Made by a program: the position numbers and the translations under genes
Shown: positions 15,129 to 22,497 of the stretch, one piece after another
Layout of the letters: every line of letters starts with the position of its first letter
Position numbering within the stretch: the first letter of the stretch is position 1
Notes under the pieces: model-generated
Told to the model about the DNA's origin: nothing
Database searches by the model: none
What the model saw: only the letters and a program-made list of their open reading frames with translations
Source: Propionibacteriales bacterium
GTDB taxonomy: Bacteria; Actinomycetota; Actinomycetes; Propionibacteriales; Nocardioidaceae
Direction: 5' to 3'
DNA: 64,000 bases
NCBI GenBank assembly: GCA_026392455.1
Contig: JAPLCB010000004.1
Location: 1 to 64,000, forward strand

Positions 15129-15147
15129 TAAGGTAAGCACAACCTAA
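15129..15147. promoter_or_regulatory. iron box (IdeR/DtxR operator)
   Basis: The 19-bp site TAAGGTAAGCACAACCTAA matches 17 of 19 positions of the IdeR/DtxR consensus TWAGGTWAGSCTWACCTWA. The two mismatches are the central C and T. It lies 37 bp before the fbpA-like gene, so Fe2+-loaded IdeR should repress the whole iron importer operon. Confidence 0.85.
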
Positions 15148-15183: not shown

Positions 15184-16206
15184 GTGCTGCGCACCCGCTC
15201 GATCCGTCTGCTCGCCGCGACCGCTGCGACCGCTCTCGCACTCCCCGTCCTCGCCGCCTGCGGCGGCGAGGACGACAAGAACGCGGTGGTCGTCTACAAC
15301 GCCCAGCACAAGCAGCTGATCTCCGCGGTCGCGAAGGAGTTCACCAAGAAGACCGGCATCACGGTGAAGCTGCGCAACGGTTCGGACCTGGAGCTGGCCA
15401 ACCAGCTGGTCGCCGAAGGCACCGCCTCGCCCGCCGACGTGTTCCTGACCGAGAACTCGCCGGCGATGGCGCTCGTCGACAGCAAAGGGCTGTTCCAGCC
15501 GCTGGCGAGGACGACGCTGGAGAGGATCCCGGCCCAGTACCGCCCGACCGACGGCGACTGGACCGGGTTCGCCGGACGTTCGACGGTCCTGGTCTACAAC
15601 CCCTCGCTGATCTCCGAGGACGACCTGCCGACGTCGTTGCTGGACCTGGCCGGTCCCGCCTGGGCCGGGAAGGTCTCGTTCTCGCCGACCGGGGCCGACT
15701 TCCAGGCGATCGTCGCCGCGGTCCTGGCCCTGAAGGGCGAGGACGCCACGAAGGCCTGGCTCGCCGGGATCAAGGCGAACGGCAAGACCTTCCAGGGCAA
15801 CAACGTGGTCCTGAAGTCGGTCAACGCCGGCGAGGTCGCGACCGGGATCATCTACCACTACTACTGGGACCGGGACCAGGAGGAGTCGGGTGAGAACAGC
15901 GACAACAGCAAGCTCTACTTCTTCGGGGACCAGGACCCGGGTGCCTTCGTCTCGACCTCGGGGGCCGGGGTCCTCGCCAACGGTGACCACCTCACCGACG
16001 CCGAGAAGTTCGTCGACTACCTGACCAGCGCCGAGGGCCAGAAGATCATCGCCGACAGCTACGCGCTGGAGTACACGCTCAACCCCGAGGTGCCGCTCGG
16101 ACGCGAGGTGAAGCCGTTCGCGGAGCTCGACCCGCCGGCCGTGGGTGTCTCGGAGCTCGACAGCCAGAAGGTGGTCCAGCTGATGCAGGACGCCGGGCTG
16201 CTGTGA
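15184..16206 (+). CDS. ferric iron ABC transporter, substrate-binding lipoprotein
   Basis: A 340-residue Fe3+-binding protein of the FbpA/FutA type. The lipobox LAAC places Cys at residue 22 after a hydrophobic signal (AATAATALALPVLAAC), so it is membrane-anchored. VVVYNAQHKQL, ADVFLTENSPAM and the C-terminal-lobe Tyr pair in GIIYHYYWDR are typical ferric-ion-binding elements. The GTG start follows the IdeR box directly. It overlaps the permease gene (GTGA), giving an fbpABC-type operon extended by an adenylation-domain gene. Confidence 0.9.
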   Translation: MLRTRSIRLLAATAATALALPVLAACGGEDDKNAVVVYNAQHKQLISAVAKEFTKKTGITVKLRNGSDLELANQLVAEGTASPADVFLTENSPAMALVDSKGLFQPLARTTLERIPAQYRPTDGDWTGFAGRSTVLVYNPSLISEDDLPTSLLDLAGPAWAGKVSFSPTGADFQAIVAAVLALKGEDATKAWLAGIKANGKTFQGNNVVLKSVNAGEVATGIIYHYYWDRDQEESGENSDNSKLYFFGDQDPGAFVSTSGAGVLANGDHLTDAEKFVDYLTSAEGQKIIADSYALEYTLNPEVPLGREVKPFAELDPPAVGVSELDSQKVVQLMQDAGLL

Positions 16207-17741
16207 TCCGGACGCTGACCCGGCGCGGAGCATCGCCTCTGACCCTGGTCGGACTGGTCGTCGTCCTGCTCACCTTGATCCCGCTGGGCTACATCGCCTA
16301 CGCGCTGGTCACCATGGGGCCCGCCGACCTCGCGGCACTGCTCTGGCGACCGCGGGTCGGTGAGCTGCTGCGCAACACCCTGAGCCTGATGGTCGGCACC
16401 GTCGCGGTGACCACGGTGGTCGGCGTCGCGTGCGCGTTCCTGGTGAACCGGACCGACCTGCGGCTGCGCGGTTGGTGGCACGCGCTGCTGTCAGCGCCGC
16501 TGGCGGTCCCGGCCTTCGTGAACTCCTACGGCTGGGTCTCGCTGACCAGCTCGGTGCAGTCCTACGCCGGTGCGGTCCTGGTGGTCTCGCTGTCGTACTA
16601 CCCGCTGGTCTACCTCCCGGTCACCGCGGCGATGACCACCCTCGAAGCCGCTCCTGAGGAGGTCGCCCGGTCACTGGGCCGCTCGCGCACCCGGGCCTTC
16701 TTCTCCGCGGCCCTCCCGCGGCTGCTCCCGGCGGTCCTCGGTGGTGCCCTCCTGGTCGGGCTGCACGTGCTCGCGGAGTTCGGGGCGCTCCAGCTGCTCA
16801 ACTACCAGACGTTCACCACCGCGATCTACGGGCAGTACCAGTCCAGCTTCGCCGGGGATGCCGGCACCGCGCTGTCCGGCGTGCTGGTCGTGCTCTGCGT
16901 GCTGCTGCTCACCGTCGAGCTGATCGGCCGCGGCGGTCGGCGGGTCGACCGGGTCGGACGTGGCACCGGGCGGACCGCCGAACCGCTGGTCCTGGGATCC
17001 CGGGCGGTCCCGGTCCTCGGACTGCTCGTCGGGCTGGTCGTCCTGGCTCTCGGGGTGCCGCTCTACTCGCTGGGGCACTGGCTCGTCGTCGGCTCGTCGA
17101 CCGAGTTCCCGGTCGACGAGCTGACCCGGGCCCTGGGCAGCACCGTCGGCCTCGCCCTCGGCGGAGCGACCCTGACGATGCTGATGGCGATGCCGCTGGC
17201 CTGGCTGGTCGTACGGCGACGTGGTCCGGTCAGCACGGTCCTGGAACGCCTCGCCTACACCGCCAACTCGCTGCCCGGGATCGTGGTCGCGCTGGCTCTG
17301 GTCACCGTCTCGATCCGGTACGCGCCGTCGGCCTACCAGACGGTTCCGGTGCTCCTGCTGGCCTACGCGATCCTGTTCCTGCCGCGCGCGCTGGTCAGTG
17401 TGCGCGGCTCGCTGGAGCAGGCGCCGGCCCTTCTCGACGACGTCGCCCGGAGCCTAGGGCTGACTGCGTGGCGAACGTTCCTGCGGGTGACCGTGCGCCT
17501 GGTCGCTCCGGGGGTCGGCGCCGGCCTGGCGCTCGTCTTCCTGGCCGTGAGCACCGAGCTCACCGCCACGTTGCTGCTGTCGCCGATCGGCACCACCACC
17601 CTGGCCACCGAGTTCTGGTCGAACTCGTCCTCGGTCGAGTACGGCGCTGCGGCGCCGTACGCCCTGCTGCTGGTCCTGGCCGCCGTCCCTGCGACCGTGA
17701 TGCTGTCGCGCCAGGCCCGACCCGAGGAGGTCCGCCCGTGA
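16203..17741 (+). CDS. ferric iron ABC transporter, double-domain permease
   Basis: A 512-residue inner-membrane permease with two fused binding-protein-dependent transport domains, about 12 hydrophobic segments in all. EAA-loop-like sequences appear twice: LEAAPEEVARSLGRSRTRAF near residue 150 and LEQAPALLDDVARSLGLTAW near 405. This FbpB-like architecture is normal for Fe3+ importers. It overlaps both neighbours by 4 bp. Confidence 0.9.
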   Translation: MIRTLTRRGASPLTLVGLVVVLLTLIPLGYIAYALVTMGPADLAALLWRPRVGELLRNTLSLMVGTVAVTTVVGVACAFLVNRTDLRLRGWWHALLSAPLAVPAFVNSYGWVSLTSSVQSYAGAVLVVSLSYYPLVYLPVTAAMTTLEAAPEEVARSLGRSRTRAFFSAALPRLLPAVLGGALLVGLHVLAEFGALQLLNYQTFTTAIYGQYQSSFAGDAGTALSGVLVVLCVLLLTVELIGRGGRRVDRVGRGTGRTAEPLVLGSRAVPVLGLLVGLVVLALGVPLYSLGHWLVVGSSTEFPVDELTRALGSTVGLALGGATLTMLMAMPLAWLVVRRRGPVSTVLERLAYTANSLPGIVVALALVTVSIRYAPSAYQTVPVLLLAYAILFLPRALVSVRGSLEQAPALLDDVARSLGLTAWRTFLRVTVRLVAPGVGAGLALVFLAVSTELTATLLLSPIGTTTLATEFWSNSSSVEYGAAAPYALLLVLAAVPATVMLSRQARPEEVRP

Positions 17742-18766
17742 GTGCCGTGAAGATCAGCGCCGTCTCCAAGTCGTACGGCGCCACCGACGTGCTCCGGGCC
17801 GTGGACCTCGACGTTCCCGAGGGGTCGATCACGTCGGTGCTCGGGCCGTCCGGCTGCGGCAAGACCACGCTGCTGCGGATCATCGCCGGCTTCGTCCGGG
17901 CAGATGCCGGAACCGTCACGATCGACGGCAAGGTCGTCGACGACGGCTCGGTCGCGGTCAAGCCGGAGCGGCGGGGCGTCGGTTACGTTCCCCAGGAGGG
18001 TGCGCTCTTCCCGCACCTGGACGTCCGCGCCAACATCCTGTTCGGCCTGCCGCGGTCCGCGCGCACCTCGGCGCGGCTGGCCGAGCTGATGGACCTCGCG
18101 GAACTGCCGTCAGCCCTGGCCCGCCGGCAGCCGTTCCAGCTCTCCGGTGGTCAGCAGCAGCGGGTGGCGATCGCCCGCGCGTTGGCGCCGCGGCCGACCG
18201 TGGTACTCCTCGACGAACCGTTCTCCGGTCTCGACGCCGGTCTGCGGGTCTCCGCCGGCCGGGCCGTGACCCGCGTGCTGCGGCACGCCGGCGCCACCGC
18301 CCTGCTGGTGACCCACGACCAGGGTGAGGCACTCTCGCTCGCCGATCAGGTCGCCGTGATGCGGGCCGGCCGGTTCGTCCAGGTCGACGAACCGGCGCGG
18401 CTGTACGGCAGCCCGGTCGACATCGAGACGGCCGAGTTCGTCGGCGGTGCCTCCGTGGTCCCCGGCGTGGTGCGAGCCGGGGTGGCGGACACCGTGCTCG
18501 GCACCATCGGCGTCAACGCCGCGGACGGCCCGGCGCGACTGCTGCTGCGTCCCGAACAGCTGACCATCGTCGAGCCCGGGGCCGGCAGCGCCGTCGGCGA
18601 GGTCGAGGAGGTCAGCTTCTACGGGGCCCAGGTCGTGGTGCGGATCTCGCTGGCGGACCGGTCCGCCGTGGTGGCCCGGTGCTCGTCGACGTCCACCCCA
18701 CGACCCGGTGACCGCGTCGGCCTCGCGGTCGACGGTGTGGCGGTGGCCTTCCCCGCGTCGACATGA
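17738..18766 (+). CDS. ferric iron ABC transporter, ATP-binding protein
   Basis: A 342-residue ABC ATPase powering the upstream permease. Walker A GPSGCGKTTLL near residue 37, signature [15 protein letters not shown] near 135, Walker B VVLLDEPFSGLD near 156 and the switch His in LLVTHDQGEALSLAD near 190. The C-terminal ~100 residues form the regulatory TOBE-like domain. It ends with the ATGA overlap into the next gene, tying that gene to iron control. Confidence 0.9.
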   Translation: MSAVKISAVSKSYGATDVLRAVDLDVPEGSITSVLGPSGCGKTTLLRIIAGFVRADAGTVTIDGKVVDDGSVAVKPERRGVGYVPQEGALFPHLDVRANILFGLPRSARTSARLAELMDLAELPSALARRQPFQLSGGQQQRVAIARALAPRPTVVLLDEPFSGLDAGLRVSAGRAVTRVLRHAGATALLVTHDQGEALSLADQVAVMRAGRFVQVDEPARLYGSPVDIETAEFVGGASVVPGVVRAGVADTVLGTIGVNAADGPARLLLRPEQLTIVEPGAGSAVGEVEEVSFYGAQVVVRISLADRSAVVARCSSTSTPRPGDRVGLAVDGVAVAFPAST

Positions 18767-21285
18767 CCGGCACCGACCTGACCGGCACCGACCTGACCGG
18801 CACCGCGGGGACGCGGAGCCCGGCCGACCGGTTGGGTCGGTTCGAGCCGACTGCCGCGCCCGCTGTCGTGGTCGGCGACCGGGTGATCAGCCACGCGGAG
18901 CTCGACGACCTGGTCGGGCGCCGCGCTACCGTTCTGGGCCCGACCCGACGGCTGGTTCTGCTGGAGTGCGCCAACGCCCTGGAACCGCTGGTCACGTACC
19001 TGGCCGCCCTCCGCGGGCACCACCCGGTGCTGCTGGCGCCGTCCCTGGAGTCAGAACCCGCTCGGCGTCAGTGGCAGCGGATCGTCGAGGCGTACCGGCC
19101 GGACCTGATCTGCGCCCGGGACGGCGACCTCTGGGTCGACCTGGAGGAACAGCCCGGTACCCGTCACGACCTGCACCCCGAGCTCGCGGTCCTGCTGGGA
19201 ACGTCGGGATCGACCGGAACTCCCAAGCTGGTCCGGCTGTCGCGGGAGAACCTGCGCAGCAACGCGGCCGCGATCGCGGACTACCTGCACCTCGACCAGG
19301 ACAGTCGGGCGGCCACCACGTTGCCGCTGCAGTACTGCTACGGACTCTCGGTGGTGAACTCCCACCTGATGGCGCAGGGCAGCGTCTGGCTGACCGACGC
19401 GTCGGTCGTCGATCCCGGTTTCTGGGACGACTTCGAGGCGGTCGGTGCCACGTCGCTGGCCGGGGTGCCGTACACCTTCGACCTGCTGGCTCGCTCGGGG
19501 GTGGACTGGCTGGCGGTTCCGGGGTTGCGCCAGGTCACCCAGGCCGGGGGGCGGATGGACCCCGACCGGGTTCGCGACGTGGCGGTCTCCTCCCAGCGGC
19601 ACGGCGTCGAGTTCTTCGTGATGTACGGGCAGACCGAAGCCACGGCACGGATGGCGTACCTGCCTCCGGGGCTGGCAGCGGAACGGCCCTCGTGCATCGG
19701 CGTCCCGATCGACGGTGGCGAGTTCGCCCTCGACGACGGCGAGCTGGTCTACAGCGGCCCCAACGTGATGCTCGGCTACGCCGAGGGACCGGCAGACCTG
19801 GCTCTGGGGGCGACCTTGACCGAGCTTCGTACCGGCGACCGGGCCGTCCAGCACGACGACGGCCTCTTCGAGATCGTCGGTCGGTCCAGCCGGCTCGCGA
19901 AGCTGTACGGCGTGCGCCTGGATCTCGACCTGGCCGAGCAGATGCTCGCCGAGCGAGGCGTCGAGGCGGCGGTGGTCGTCGCGGGGGAGCAGGTCCACGT
20001 CTTCGTCGGCGACGCCCGGACCGCCGGGCGGGCCCACGGGCTCGTTGCGCAGGAGCACTGCCTTCCGCGGCACGCGGTCGTCGTCCACGCCGGTGGGGAC
20101 CTCCCGCGGACGGCGTCGGGCAAGGTCGACCTCGGGGCCCTGGAGCGGCGCACCCTCGACGCCCGTCCGGCTGCGCCCGACGACGTCCGGTCCGCCTACG
20201 CCGGGGTCTTCGGCCGCGAGGTCGGCGACGACGACTCGTTCGTGAGCCTGCACGGGGACTCGCTCTCCTACGTGGAGACCTTCACCCGGTTGGAGCGGTT
20301 GCTCGGGACGGTGCCGGCACGCTGGCCCGAGCTGAGCGTCGCCGACCTCTCCGCGCGGTCCCGTCGCCCGCGACGGACCTGGGCGGCCCTGGAGACGCCG
20401 ATGGTTCTCCGCGCGGCCGCGATCGTGCTGCTGCTCGGCGCACACGCCGACCTGTGGACCACCCAGGGCGGAGCCCACGTGCTGCTGGCCTTGTTCGGCT
20501 TCAACCTGGCCAGGTTCGCCCTGGTCTCGCCGGTGCCCCGGGAGCGGCTGGTGGCGGTGCTGCGACTCGTCGGCGACATGGTGGCGCCGGCCCTGCTGCT
20601 GATCGTCGTGGTGATCGCCTGCGGCGGCTACCGGTGGCCCACGGCGCTGCTGCTGAATTCCTTCGTCGGCTACCACGAGACCTGGGGTGCGAACTGGCAG
20701 CTGTGGTTCCTCGAGGCCACCGCCTGGACAGCAGTGACCCTGGCGGCGCTGCTCTGCGTCCCCGGCATCCGTGCGGTCCAGGCGCGCTGGCCGTACGCGG
20801 CGGCGTCCGGTGCGCTCGGGATCGCGATGGTCCTCCGGGCGACGCTGGCGCCCGACGAGGGACCGCGCCACCTCTACTCTCCCCAGGCCAGTGCCTGGTG
20901 CATCCTGCTGGGAGTCCTGGCCGCGTACGCCGACACCCGGGCCAAGAAGGTGCTCACCGTGGCGCTGGCAGTCGCGTGCACGCTCGGCTACTTCGCGGTG
21001 CCGCTGCGGGGCTACCTGGTGGTCGGCGCGGTGGTGCTGGTGCTGGCGCTGCCCTGGGTCCCGGTCCCGCGGCCGCTGGACCGGGTCGTCGCCACGGTGG
21101 CCTCGGCCTCGCTCTTCATCTACCTGACGCACTGGCGGTTCTACGAGCCGCTCGAGGAGAGCGTGAACGGTCTTCTGGCTCTGGTCGCCTCGATCGTGGT
21201 CGGGGTGGTGGCGTGGGCGGCGTGGAACGCAGGCCGGCGGCGGCTCGCCTCCGCGGTGGCCGCCCGTGGTCCGGCGACGTCCTAG
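18763..21285 (+). CDS. adenylation–carrier protein–membrane acyltransferase fusion
   Basis: An 840-residue three-part protein. Residues ~30–460 are an AMP-forming adenylation domain: A3 LLGTSGSTGTPK (~144–155), A5 MYGQTEAT (~286–293), A7 LRTGD (~355–359), GRSSRLAKLYGVRLD and A10 LPRTASGK (~447–454). Residues ~475–535 are a carrier domain with the phosphopantetheine Ser in LHGDSL (~500). From ~545 to the end are about 9–10 hydrophobic segments resembling an acyltransferase-3 (OafA-like) domain, with ASLFIYLTHWRF near 787. There is no condensation or thioesterase domain. The start contains an in-frame 15-bp duplication (TGTDL). It overlaps the iron ATPase gene, so it should be iron-repressed. 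Substrate and product are unknown; activated-acyl transfer to an envelope acceptor is inference. Confidence 0.75.
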   Translation: MTGTDLTGTDLTGTAGTRSPADRLGRFEPTAAPAVVVGDRVISHAELDDLVGRRATVLGPTRRLVLLECANALEPLVTYLAALRGHHPVLLAPSLESEPARRQWQRIVEAYRPDLICARDGDLWVDLEEQPGTRHDLHPELAVLLGTSGSTGTPKLVRLSRENLRSNAAAIADYLHLDQDSRAATTLPLQYCYGLSVVNSHLMAQGSVWLTDASVVDPGFWDDFEAVGATSLAGVPYTFDLLARSGVDWLAVPGLRQVTQAGGRMDPDRVRDVAVSSQRHGVEFFVMYGQTEATARMAYLPPGLAAERPSCIGVPIDGGEFALDDGELVYSGPNVMLGYAEGPADLALGATLTELRTGDRAVQHDDGLFEIVGRSSRLAKLYGVRLDLDLAEQMLAERGVEAAVVVAGEQVHVFVGDARTAGRAHGLVAQEHCLPRHAVVVHAGGDLPRTASGKVDLGALERRTLDARPAAPDDVRSAYAGVFGREVGDDDSFVSLHGDSLSYVETFTRLERLLGTVPARWPELSVADLSARSRRPRRTWAALETPMVLRAAAIVLLLGAHADLWTTQGGAHVLLALFGFNLARFALVSPVPRERLVAVLRLVGDMVAPALLLIVVVIACGGYRWPTALLLNSFVGYHETWGANWQLWFLEATAWTAVTLAALLCVPGIRAVQARWPYAAASGALGIAMVLRATLAPDEGPRHLYSPQASAWCILLGVLAAYADTRAKKVLTVALAVACTLGYFAVPLRGYLVVGAVVLVLALPWVPVPRPLDRVVATVASASLFIYLTHWRFYEPLEESVNGLLALVASIVVGVVAWAAWNAGRRRLASAVAARGPATS

Positions 21286-21294: not shown

Positions 21295-22497
21295 ATGCAG
21301 GAGCAGACCTCGACCAACGTGCAGCCGGTCCTGGCCGGCGTGATGCTCGCCCTGGTCGGGTTCGCGAGCTCGTTCGCCGTCGTCCTGGCCGGCCTGCGCG
21401 CTGTGGGGGCGTCCCCGGCCCAGGCGGCGTCCGGCCTCCTGGCACTCTGCCTGGCCCAAGCCCTCGGCATCCTCTGGCTCACCTGGCGGCACCGGCTGCC
21501 GCTGGTCCTGGCCTGGTCGACGCCGGGGGCCGCCCTGCTGGTGAGCTCCGGTGCGGTCGACGGAGGCTGGCCGGCAGCGGTCGGTGCCTTCGTGGTCTGC
21601 GGGGGGCTGATCCTGCTGACCGCGTTGTGGCCGCGGCTGGGCGACCTGATCGCGGCGATCCCCGGCCCGATCGCCCAGGCGATGCTGGCCGGCGTGCTGC
21701 TGTCGATCTGCCTGGAGCCGGTCCGCGTCTTCGCCGACCGCCCCGGCCTGGTGGCTCCGGTCCTGGTCGTCTGGGTCGTCCTGCTGCGGCTGCGTCCGAC
21801 CTTCGCGGTCGCCGGGGCCTTCGTCACCACGATGGTGGTGATCGCCGCCTACCTGGTGGACCACGGCGCCGGGCCGCTCGCGCTCGCGCCGACGGTGGAC
21901 TGGGTCGCGCCGTCGTTCAGCTGGCAGGCGGTCGTCGGCCTGGGTGTCCCGCTGTACGTGGTCACGATGGCCTCCCAGAACGTGCCCGGGGTCGCGGTGC
22001 TGGCCACGTTCGGGTTCACGGTGCCGTGGCGCGAGGCGATGACGGTCACCGGCGCGGGCACGGTGGCCGGGGCGTTCGCCGGCGGGCACGCGGTGAACCT
22101 GGCGGCGATCACCGCAGCGATGGCGGCGTCCCCCGAGGCGCACCCCGACCCGGACCGGCGGTGGATCGCGGCGCACACCGCCGGCTGGACCTACGTGGTG
22201 CTGGCAGTCGTCTCGACCGCACTGGTCAGCGTGGTGGCTGCAGCCCCCGACGGCCTGGTCGAGGTGGTGGCGGGACTGGCCCTGCTCGGCACCCTGGGGG
22301 GCGCGTTGAAGGGAGCGACCAGCGCCGAGACCGGTCGGGAGCCCGCGGTCGTGACGTTCGTGGTCGCCGCCAGCGGCGTCGCGTTCGTCGGGATCGGCGC
22401 TGCCTTCTGGGGCCTGGTCGCCGGACTCGTCGTGCACGCCGTGCTGTCCGGGCTGGCCGGGCTGGCCGGGCGCCCGCGCGCTACACCTGCAGGGTGA
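21295..22497 (+). CDS. BenE-family (benzoate/H+ symporter-like) transporter
   Basis: A 400-residue membrane protein with about 12 hydrophobic segments. VQPVLAGVMLALVGFASSFAVVLAGL at the start, WSTPGAALL near residue 80, IPGPIAQAMLAGVLL near 122, LGVPLYVVTMASQNVPGVAVL near 217 and the GGHAVNLAAITAA segment near 262 are BenE-typical. The usual substrate class is benzoate or other aromatic acids. Placement after an adenylating enzyme hints at an aromatic acid link, but that is speculation. The 3' end overlaps the convergent MBL gene by 17 bp. Confidence 0.82.
   Translation: MQEQTSTNVQPVLAGVMLALVGFASSFAVVLAGLRAVGASPAQAASGLLALCLAQALGILWLTWRHRLPLVLAWSTPGAALLVSSGAVDGGWPAAVGAFVVCGGLILLTALWPRLGDLIAAIPGPIAQAMLAGVLLSICLEPVRVFADRPGLVAPVLVVWVVLLRLRPTFAVAGAFVTTMVVIAAYLVDHGAGPLALAPTVDWVAPSFSWQAVVGLGVPLYVVTMASQNVPGVAVLATFGFTVPWREAMTVTGAGTVAGAFAGGHAVNLAAITAAMAASPEAHPDPDRRWIAAHTAGWTYVVLAVVSTALVSVVAAAPDGLVEVVAGLALLGTLGGALKGATSAETGREPAVVTFVVAASGVAFVGIGAAFWGLVAGLVVHAVLSGLAGLAGRPRATPAG

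Follow-up and report, generated by a model that had tools for sequence, protein, structure and literature searches.

Why would a bacterium keep, beside the genes of a ferric iron importer, a single gene that joins an adenylation domain, a carrier domain and a membrane acyltransferase? The question is raised by a 64,000-nucleotide stretch of a Propionibacteriales bacterium (assembly GCA_026392455.1, contig JAPLCB010000004.1, positions 1 to 64,000), the whole of which was analyzed and is referred to here as the window. The gene, which we call T, is tied to iron because of its gene order and the control sites at its loci. We propose, with a probability of roughly 0.55, that T is an iron-starvation enzyme predicted to acylate an extracytoplasmic acceptor and so to aid ferric iron capture. 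Overall, the evidence suggests that soil bacteria have a helper of iron uptake that has not been described before. T and its domains lie at the following positions.

18763..21285, + strand: T, adenylation-carrier-AT3 membrane acyltransferase of 840 amino acids (open reading frame, Pfam, conservation, AlphaFold2)
18856..20160, + strand: adenylation domain, about residues 32-466 (Pfam AMP-binding, conservation, Foldseek)
20182..20364, + strand: carrier domain, about residues 474-534, with Ser500 (PP-binding below the cut-off, Ser500 conservation)
20383..21282, + strand: AT3 membrane domain, residues 541-840, with ten long helices and R550-X10-H561 (Pfam, conservation, AlphaFold2)

Pfam matches, matches within the family and conservation establish T as a predicted fusion of three domains, as an earlier note on this DNA had read from the letters: an acyl/aryl-type adenylation domain, a carrier with a phosphopantetheine serine and a ten-helix AT3 domain. 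A profile search of all three regions had been proposed, and in T alone it is conclusive for the first only. AMP-binding is found at residues 135-339 with 103.8 bits, above its cut-off, whereas PP-binding (residues 474-516, 18.2 bits against a cut-off of 20.8) and Acyl_transf_3 (PF01757; residues 611-818, 24.1 bits against a cut-off of 31) remain below theirs. In the family alignment A1, whose 24 rows comprise 17 full-length proteins, one shorter protein (L016) and six that end before the AT3 domain, Acyl_transf_3 is matched at E <= 1e-3 by 17 members, the best at 9e-15, and PP-binding by 17 members at the same threshold. A structure prediction, likewise proposed beforehand, gave an AlphaFold2 model with a mean predicted local distance difference test score (pLDDT) of 83.5 over all of T. 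For the C-terminal 300 residues the mean is 90.4, and they form ten helices of at least 15 residues. The top Foldseek matches of the whole model include PltF-PigG, nonribosomal peptide synthetase modules, EntE-EntB fusions, MenE, MatB and oxalyl-CoA synthetase. The AT3 part has no match among PDB folds at E <= 0.001, and one viral model of 637 amino acids matches it (E 2.2e-4, TMq 0.64). By profile, motif and helix count the C-terminus of T fits AT3, in support of the suggestion that it is an acyltransferase.

The predicted active residues are invariant. The alignment used has 107 rows, namely P0001 and 106 relatives between 760 and 960 amino acids long; 139 matches to T were translated, 33 of which lie outside the alignment. 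The catalytic Lys454 of the adenylation domain, the carrier Ser500 and both Arg550 and His561 of the R-X10-H motif are kept in 107/107 rows. The carrier motif GDS, expected near residue 500, is located at residues 498-500, and the window genome encodes one match to the phosphopantetheinyl transferase family (PF01648) above the cut-off and another below it. In AT3 proteins the R-X10-H motif is described as absolutely conserved, essential and located in helix 1 (PMC9833829, as far as its available text extends). A second motif, RXXR on the cytoplasmic face of helix 3, is absent from the window's T at residues 586-610 and is present in that stretch, in several registers, in 75/107 rows; its absence was considered as a sign of a carrier rather than a coenzyme A (CoA) donor, and this argument was dropped in view of that count.

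The substrate pocket departs from that of amino-acid-activating domains. In 107/107 rows Gly194 stands where, by a phmmer alignment, such domains have the amino-acid-binding Asp, a position that we take to be Asp235 of GrsA, and Arg296, also invariant in 107/107 rows, presumably corresponds to GrsA position 331. The Asp of PosA that serves the alpha-amine presumably occupies the same position as Gly194. This Asp contacts the alpha-amine of the substrate in the portion of the PosA study that is accessible (PMC10522769). Since Gly194 replaces the amino-acid-binding Asp, the substrate of T is probably a non-amino acid, which agrees with the earlier view of an acyl/aryl-type rather than an amino-acid-type pocket. 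Arg296 in the pocket suggests that the substrate bears a further group, acidic or polar, and is therefore perhaps acidic.

What connects this protein to iron is, in the window, a three-gene transporter preceded by a candidate repressor site.

15129..15147, + strand: IdeR/DtxR-like iron box ahead of fbpA (15/19 to the IdeR consensus)
15184..16206, + strand: fbpA, ferric-iron-binding protein (PDB matches, Pfam SBP_bac_6)
16203..17741, + strand: fbpB, iron ATP-binding cassette (ABC) permease (two stretches of BPD_transp_1; relatives annotated as iron ABC transporter permease)
17738..18766, + strand: fbpC, iron ABC ATPase (Pfam ABC_tran and TOBE_2 in a scan from 17735; start at 17738)

The transporter beside T is a predicted ferric iron importer, because FbpA is closest to SfuA, YfuA and HitA. 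Its best PDB matches are 8k7n (E 5.1e-109), SfuA 1xvy (8.8e-105), YfuA 1xvx and HitA, with values ranging to 1e-74. FbpA carries a YHYY region at residues 224-227 and an LAAC lipobox, read by eye, and is probably a lipoprotein. The top NCBIfam names are aminoethylphosphonate for the binding protein and the ATPase and molybdate for the permease, all far below their cut-offs; an aminoethylphosphonate transporter was rejected on these scores and on the closeness of FbpA to ferric-binding proteins. The ATG of T lies within an ATGA that also holds the stop codon of fbpC, giving the 4-bp overlap with the importer's ATPase gene that had been pointed out earlier.

The iron box that the earlier note had placed ahead of the operon is found as TAAGGTAAGCACAACCTAA at 15129-15147. 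It agrees with the IdeR consensus, taken as TTAGGTTAGGCTAACCTAA, at 15/19 positions, the runner-up 19-mers of the 64-kb window reach 12/19, and no site in the window has three or fewer mismatches. When sites of 13/19 or better no more than 150 bp from the leading gene are counted, an IdeR-like box is found in 87/108 actinobacterial loci, a count that omits three rhizobial loci and one truncated locus and in which the remaining loci are interrelated rather than independent draws; 55 permuted palindromes used as a control average 1.4 loci of 108, with a maximum of 8. The boxes follow the gene order. Where T comes after the transporter genes (ABC>T), the box precedes fbpA in 38/39 loci and T in 6/39, which provides an internal control. 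Where T leads (T>ABC), the box precedes T in 11/21 loci and fbpA in 2/21. Boxes occur at both leading genes in 9/9 convergent and 5/5 divergent loci, and a locus with T nested inside the transporter genes has one box, before T only. Loci lacking Fbp also carry boxes (23/33, including all five with Efe genes), and 18 of the 28 with neither Fbp nor EfeO/EfeB beside T have one at T.

Across genomes, the association with a ferric importer proves much stronger than a single window could reveal (97/99 genomes, five gene orders, boxes in 87/108 loci). T is found in 134/294 Nocardioidaceae genomes (E <= 1e-100), in 71/293 genomes of an order draw (E <= 1e-90), many of them shared with the Nocardioidaceae set, and in 14/396 genomes of a phylum draw (E <= 1e-90); the family and order labels of these sets are inferred ones. 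A strong FbpA (E <= 2.6e-115) is present in 99 of the 294 Nocardioidaceae genomes, and T is present in 97 of these 99, within 8 kb in 90, compared with 37 of the 195 genomes that lack a strong FbpA (Fisher p 1e-43, without correction for relatedness). G170 and G284 are the two genomes that have a strong FbpA and no T at threshold, and among the seven non-adjacent cases T lies at most 2.2 kb from the contig start in G015 and G210. The flanking genes were examined in five sets totaling 112 loci, the 60 Nocardioidaceae loci being chosen from the 134. The genes fbpA, fbpB and fbpC all lie near T in 50/60 Nocardioidaceae loci, 14/16 order-set loci, 3/17 loci on GTDB contigs (one rhizobial) and three of six plasmid records (two rhizobial). 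The recurrent neighbor clusters of T are led by the three Fbp genes with 50-56 loci each; the next cluster has 15.

The arrangement itself is variable. Five gene orders occur, namely ABC>T, T>ABC, convergent T><CBA, divergent <CBA T> and T nested on the opposite strand, the last seen in L161 (C< T> B< A<), and at least 15 changes of arrangement are required on a FastTree tree of the 107 rows. In five of six Arthrobacter loci, EfeO (M75) and EfeB (DyP) lie divergent from T (by Pfam in L008, by tblastn in the others); all five loci in which EfeO/EfeB were found beside T are Arthrobacter ones.

Several observations weigh against T as a dedicated iron-starvation enzyme. A strong FbpA was not found in 37 of the 134 T genomes, and in 14/294 genomes the only FbpA match is a weaker one (E 9e-72 to 1e-50), eight of these genomes being without T. 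In the phylum draw, fbp genes are near T in just 5/13 loci, and the full-length T proteins of Rhizobium etli, Sinorhizobium meliloti and Phyllobacterium have no adjoining iron gene in the flanks read. At threshold, 21/108 loci lack a box, ten of them of the T>ABC type. Finally, the window's own assembly (G000) contains no PF02742 match of the DtxR repressor family and only sub-cut-off matches to PF01325. As to the missing boxes, three loci (L170, L171 and L179) have 16/19 boxes that start eight bases past the inferred start, just beyond the scored window. As to the repressor, the PF01325 matches fall, by reading, in GntR- and MarR-like open reading frames, PF02742 is present in 23/24 genomes of the genus, and the 6.1-kb IdeR neighborhood of sister genome G020 is matched in the window's assembly by stretches of 41 and 52 bases only; an assembly gap or a real loss is possible. 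In 30 further loci (L022-L051), which are more distant and mostly hold an adenylation domain only or an adenylation domain with carrier, no fbp genes are near T.

How could such an enzyme aid iron capture? T would be made under iron shortage and dedicated to the uptake of inorganic ferric iron. Its adenylation domain would activate a non-alpha-amino carboxylic acid, perhaps, given Arg296, a short hydroxy-, keto- or dicarboxylic acid, and load it onto the fused carrier at Ser500. The AT3 domain would then accept the acyl group of the carrier and pass it across the membrane to a hydroxyl or amine of an extracytoplasmic lipid, glycan or small molecule. Because its own ligase and carrier precede the AT3 domain, we infer that the donor is probably not free acyl-CoA. 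In the most speculative step, the acylated product would bind Fe(III) or present it to FbpA, or to EfeO in Arthrobacter. FbpABC and EfeOB serve the uptake of inorganic iron and not of siderophore complexes, and because both do so a surface ligand is favored over a classical siderophore. Transfer of acyl groups to acceptors on the outside is known for AT3 proteins, among which are the succinyltransferases ExoH and MdoC/OpgC (available part of PMC9558356). In its most specific form, the proposal that one protein makes a cell-surface iron ligand, charging its own carrier with an acidic acid, placing it outside the membrane and delivering Fe(III) to FbpABC or EfeUOB, is tentative. If this were true, such a ligand would supply iron by a third route, next to secreted siderophores and the uptake of bare ions.

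The main rival is a soluble product. The AT3 domain could transfer the acid from the carrier to a small acceptor, giving a secreted siderophore-like molecule that would feed FbpABC. Iron boxes and ferric importers beside T are what such a molecule would call for, and the window genome has no NIS siderophore synthetase above the cut-off (PF04183 is matched by a 19.4-bit fragment with a stop). Apart from the Fbp genes, however, T has no widely recurring neighbor that encodes an exporter or a second biosynthetic enzyme, and relatives of FbpA bind the bare ferric ion, which leaves this alternative doubtful. On an equal footing, and also unlikely, T could acylate a lipid or glycan of the envelope during iron starvation and serve a purpose unrelated to chelation, for instance surface charge, permeability or the shielding of exposed FbpA. 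Known AT3 proteins do modify surface glycans (PMC9558356, in the text available), and in Pseudoalteromonas (L027) an adenylation-carrier gene and a separate neighboring AT3 gene lie inside a polysaccharide cluster, beside Polysacc_synt and glycosyltransferase genes; envelope modification alone would nevertheless not explain the repeated re-association of T with ferric importers.

Two further readings are very improbable. The first concerns the gene immediately after T.

21295-22497: BenE-type transporter, 9 bp downstream of T

The closeness of this gene and the acyl/aryl-type pocket would suit an aromatic-acid enzyme partnered with BenE, a link that had been drawn from the window; BenE was found beside T in 0/113 loci tested, so that the link is not supported and BenE is rejected as a member of the T unit. 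Least credible is a role for T as a membrane synthetase of a poly-acid or poly-amino acid, of the kind represented by epsilon-poly-lysine synthetase and PosA; a parallel with membrane-bound poly-amino-acid synthetases had been drawn earlier, and the adenylation, carrier and C-terminal membrane domains on one chain speak for it. Against it, T has a compact ten-helix bundle without that family's three soluble segments of about 180 residues (PMC10522769, accessible portion) and Gly in place of the alpha-amine Asp in 107/107 rows.

An iron-starvation acyltransferase remains the preferred reading of T, and more distant relatives suggest how it could have arisen. In Moritella (L024) an AT3 gene adjoins an adenylation-carrier gene, as two genes do in Pseudoalteromonas. 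In view of these split genes and of rhizobial T genes without adjoining iron genes, the comparison suggests a modular charge-and-transfer unit that was brought under iron control in Actinomycetota. The adenylation domain also occurs in other company: in Lysobacter (L029) a 42%-identical domain is found with a carrier, SDR, LuxE and LuxC (Pfam). This carrier-SDR-adenylation-LuxE-LuxC cluster spans L029:8974-13685, and clustering finds similar neighbors in L028, L032, L034 and L037.

The boundaries of T deserve comment. A short tandem repeat (MTGTDLTGTDLTGT) at 18763-18815 opens the gene. Residues 1-22 have an AlphaFold2 confidence below 50 and many relatives' matches begin near residue 31, so that the true start of T is uncertain. 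In eight loci (L097, L100, L107, L108, L116 and L143-L145) open frames extend in frame for about 380-430 codons ahead of the T match and cover the stretch occupied by fbpC. These extensions are probably a product of GC-rich composition; where some relatives have frames of about 1,200 codons, extra domains were considered and rejected, the excess lying upstream of the match and not at the C-terminus. Other neighbors, among them a biotin carboxylase, a GT4 glycosyltransferase with YbjN, a Zip-like protein and an amylase, vary with lineage and are taken as incidental. Plasmid-borne relatives of T are mostly annotated just as AMP-binding protein.

In the open-access literature, searched by titles and abstract starts and with most subscription papers and all bioRxiv preprints outside its scope, no description of the T architecture or of its iron link was found. 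Should the product of T help to capture iron, bacteria that have ferric-ion importers and no classical siderophore would have a means by which they could compete, and AT3 transfer would gain a version that is fused to, and fed by, its own carrier.

Among known systems, the FbpABC/SfuABC importers share their kind of ferric-binding protein with the transporter beside T, and to our knowledge the classical systems have no T gene. The closest parallels in working principle are Dlt and Alm. DltB is an MBOAT-type protein, whereas Pfam finds no MBOAT in T and Acyl_transf_3 instead. As in T, an acid is adenylated, loaded onto a carrier and passed by way of a membrane protein to an outside acceptor in Dlt, which consists of the ligase DltA, the carrier DltC, the membrane protein DltB and DltD (available part of PMC3783018). 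T differs in being one polypeptide, in using AT3, in lacking the amino-acid Asp and any DltD and in its link to iron, so that the Dlt parallel suggested by the earlier note is plausible as a working principle and fails for the transferase. The glycine transfer of Alm in Vibrio cholerae likewise combines a ligase, a carrier and a transferase acting on an envelope acceptor (same source, in part), but uses three proteins, the LPLAT-type transferase AlmG and glycine. Epsilon-poly-lysine synthetase and PosA resemble T in their single chain and differ from it beyond the carrier, where T has its AT3 domain. With OafB, ExoH and OpgC/MdoC, T shares the ten-helix domain, R-X10-H and, in its family, Acyl_transf_3 matches. 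AT3 fusions named in the accessible portions of two reports involve SGNH or NRF domains (PMC9558356, PMC12423673); T brings its own ligase and carrier ahead of the AT3 domain. T works like Dlt or Alm, yet it is a member of neither.

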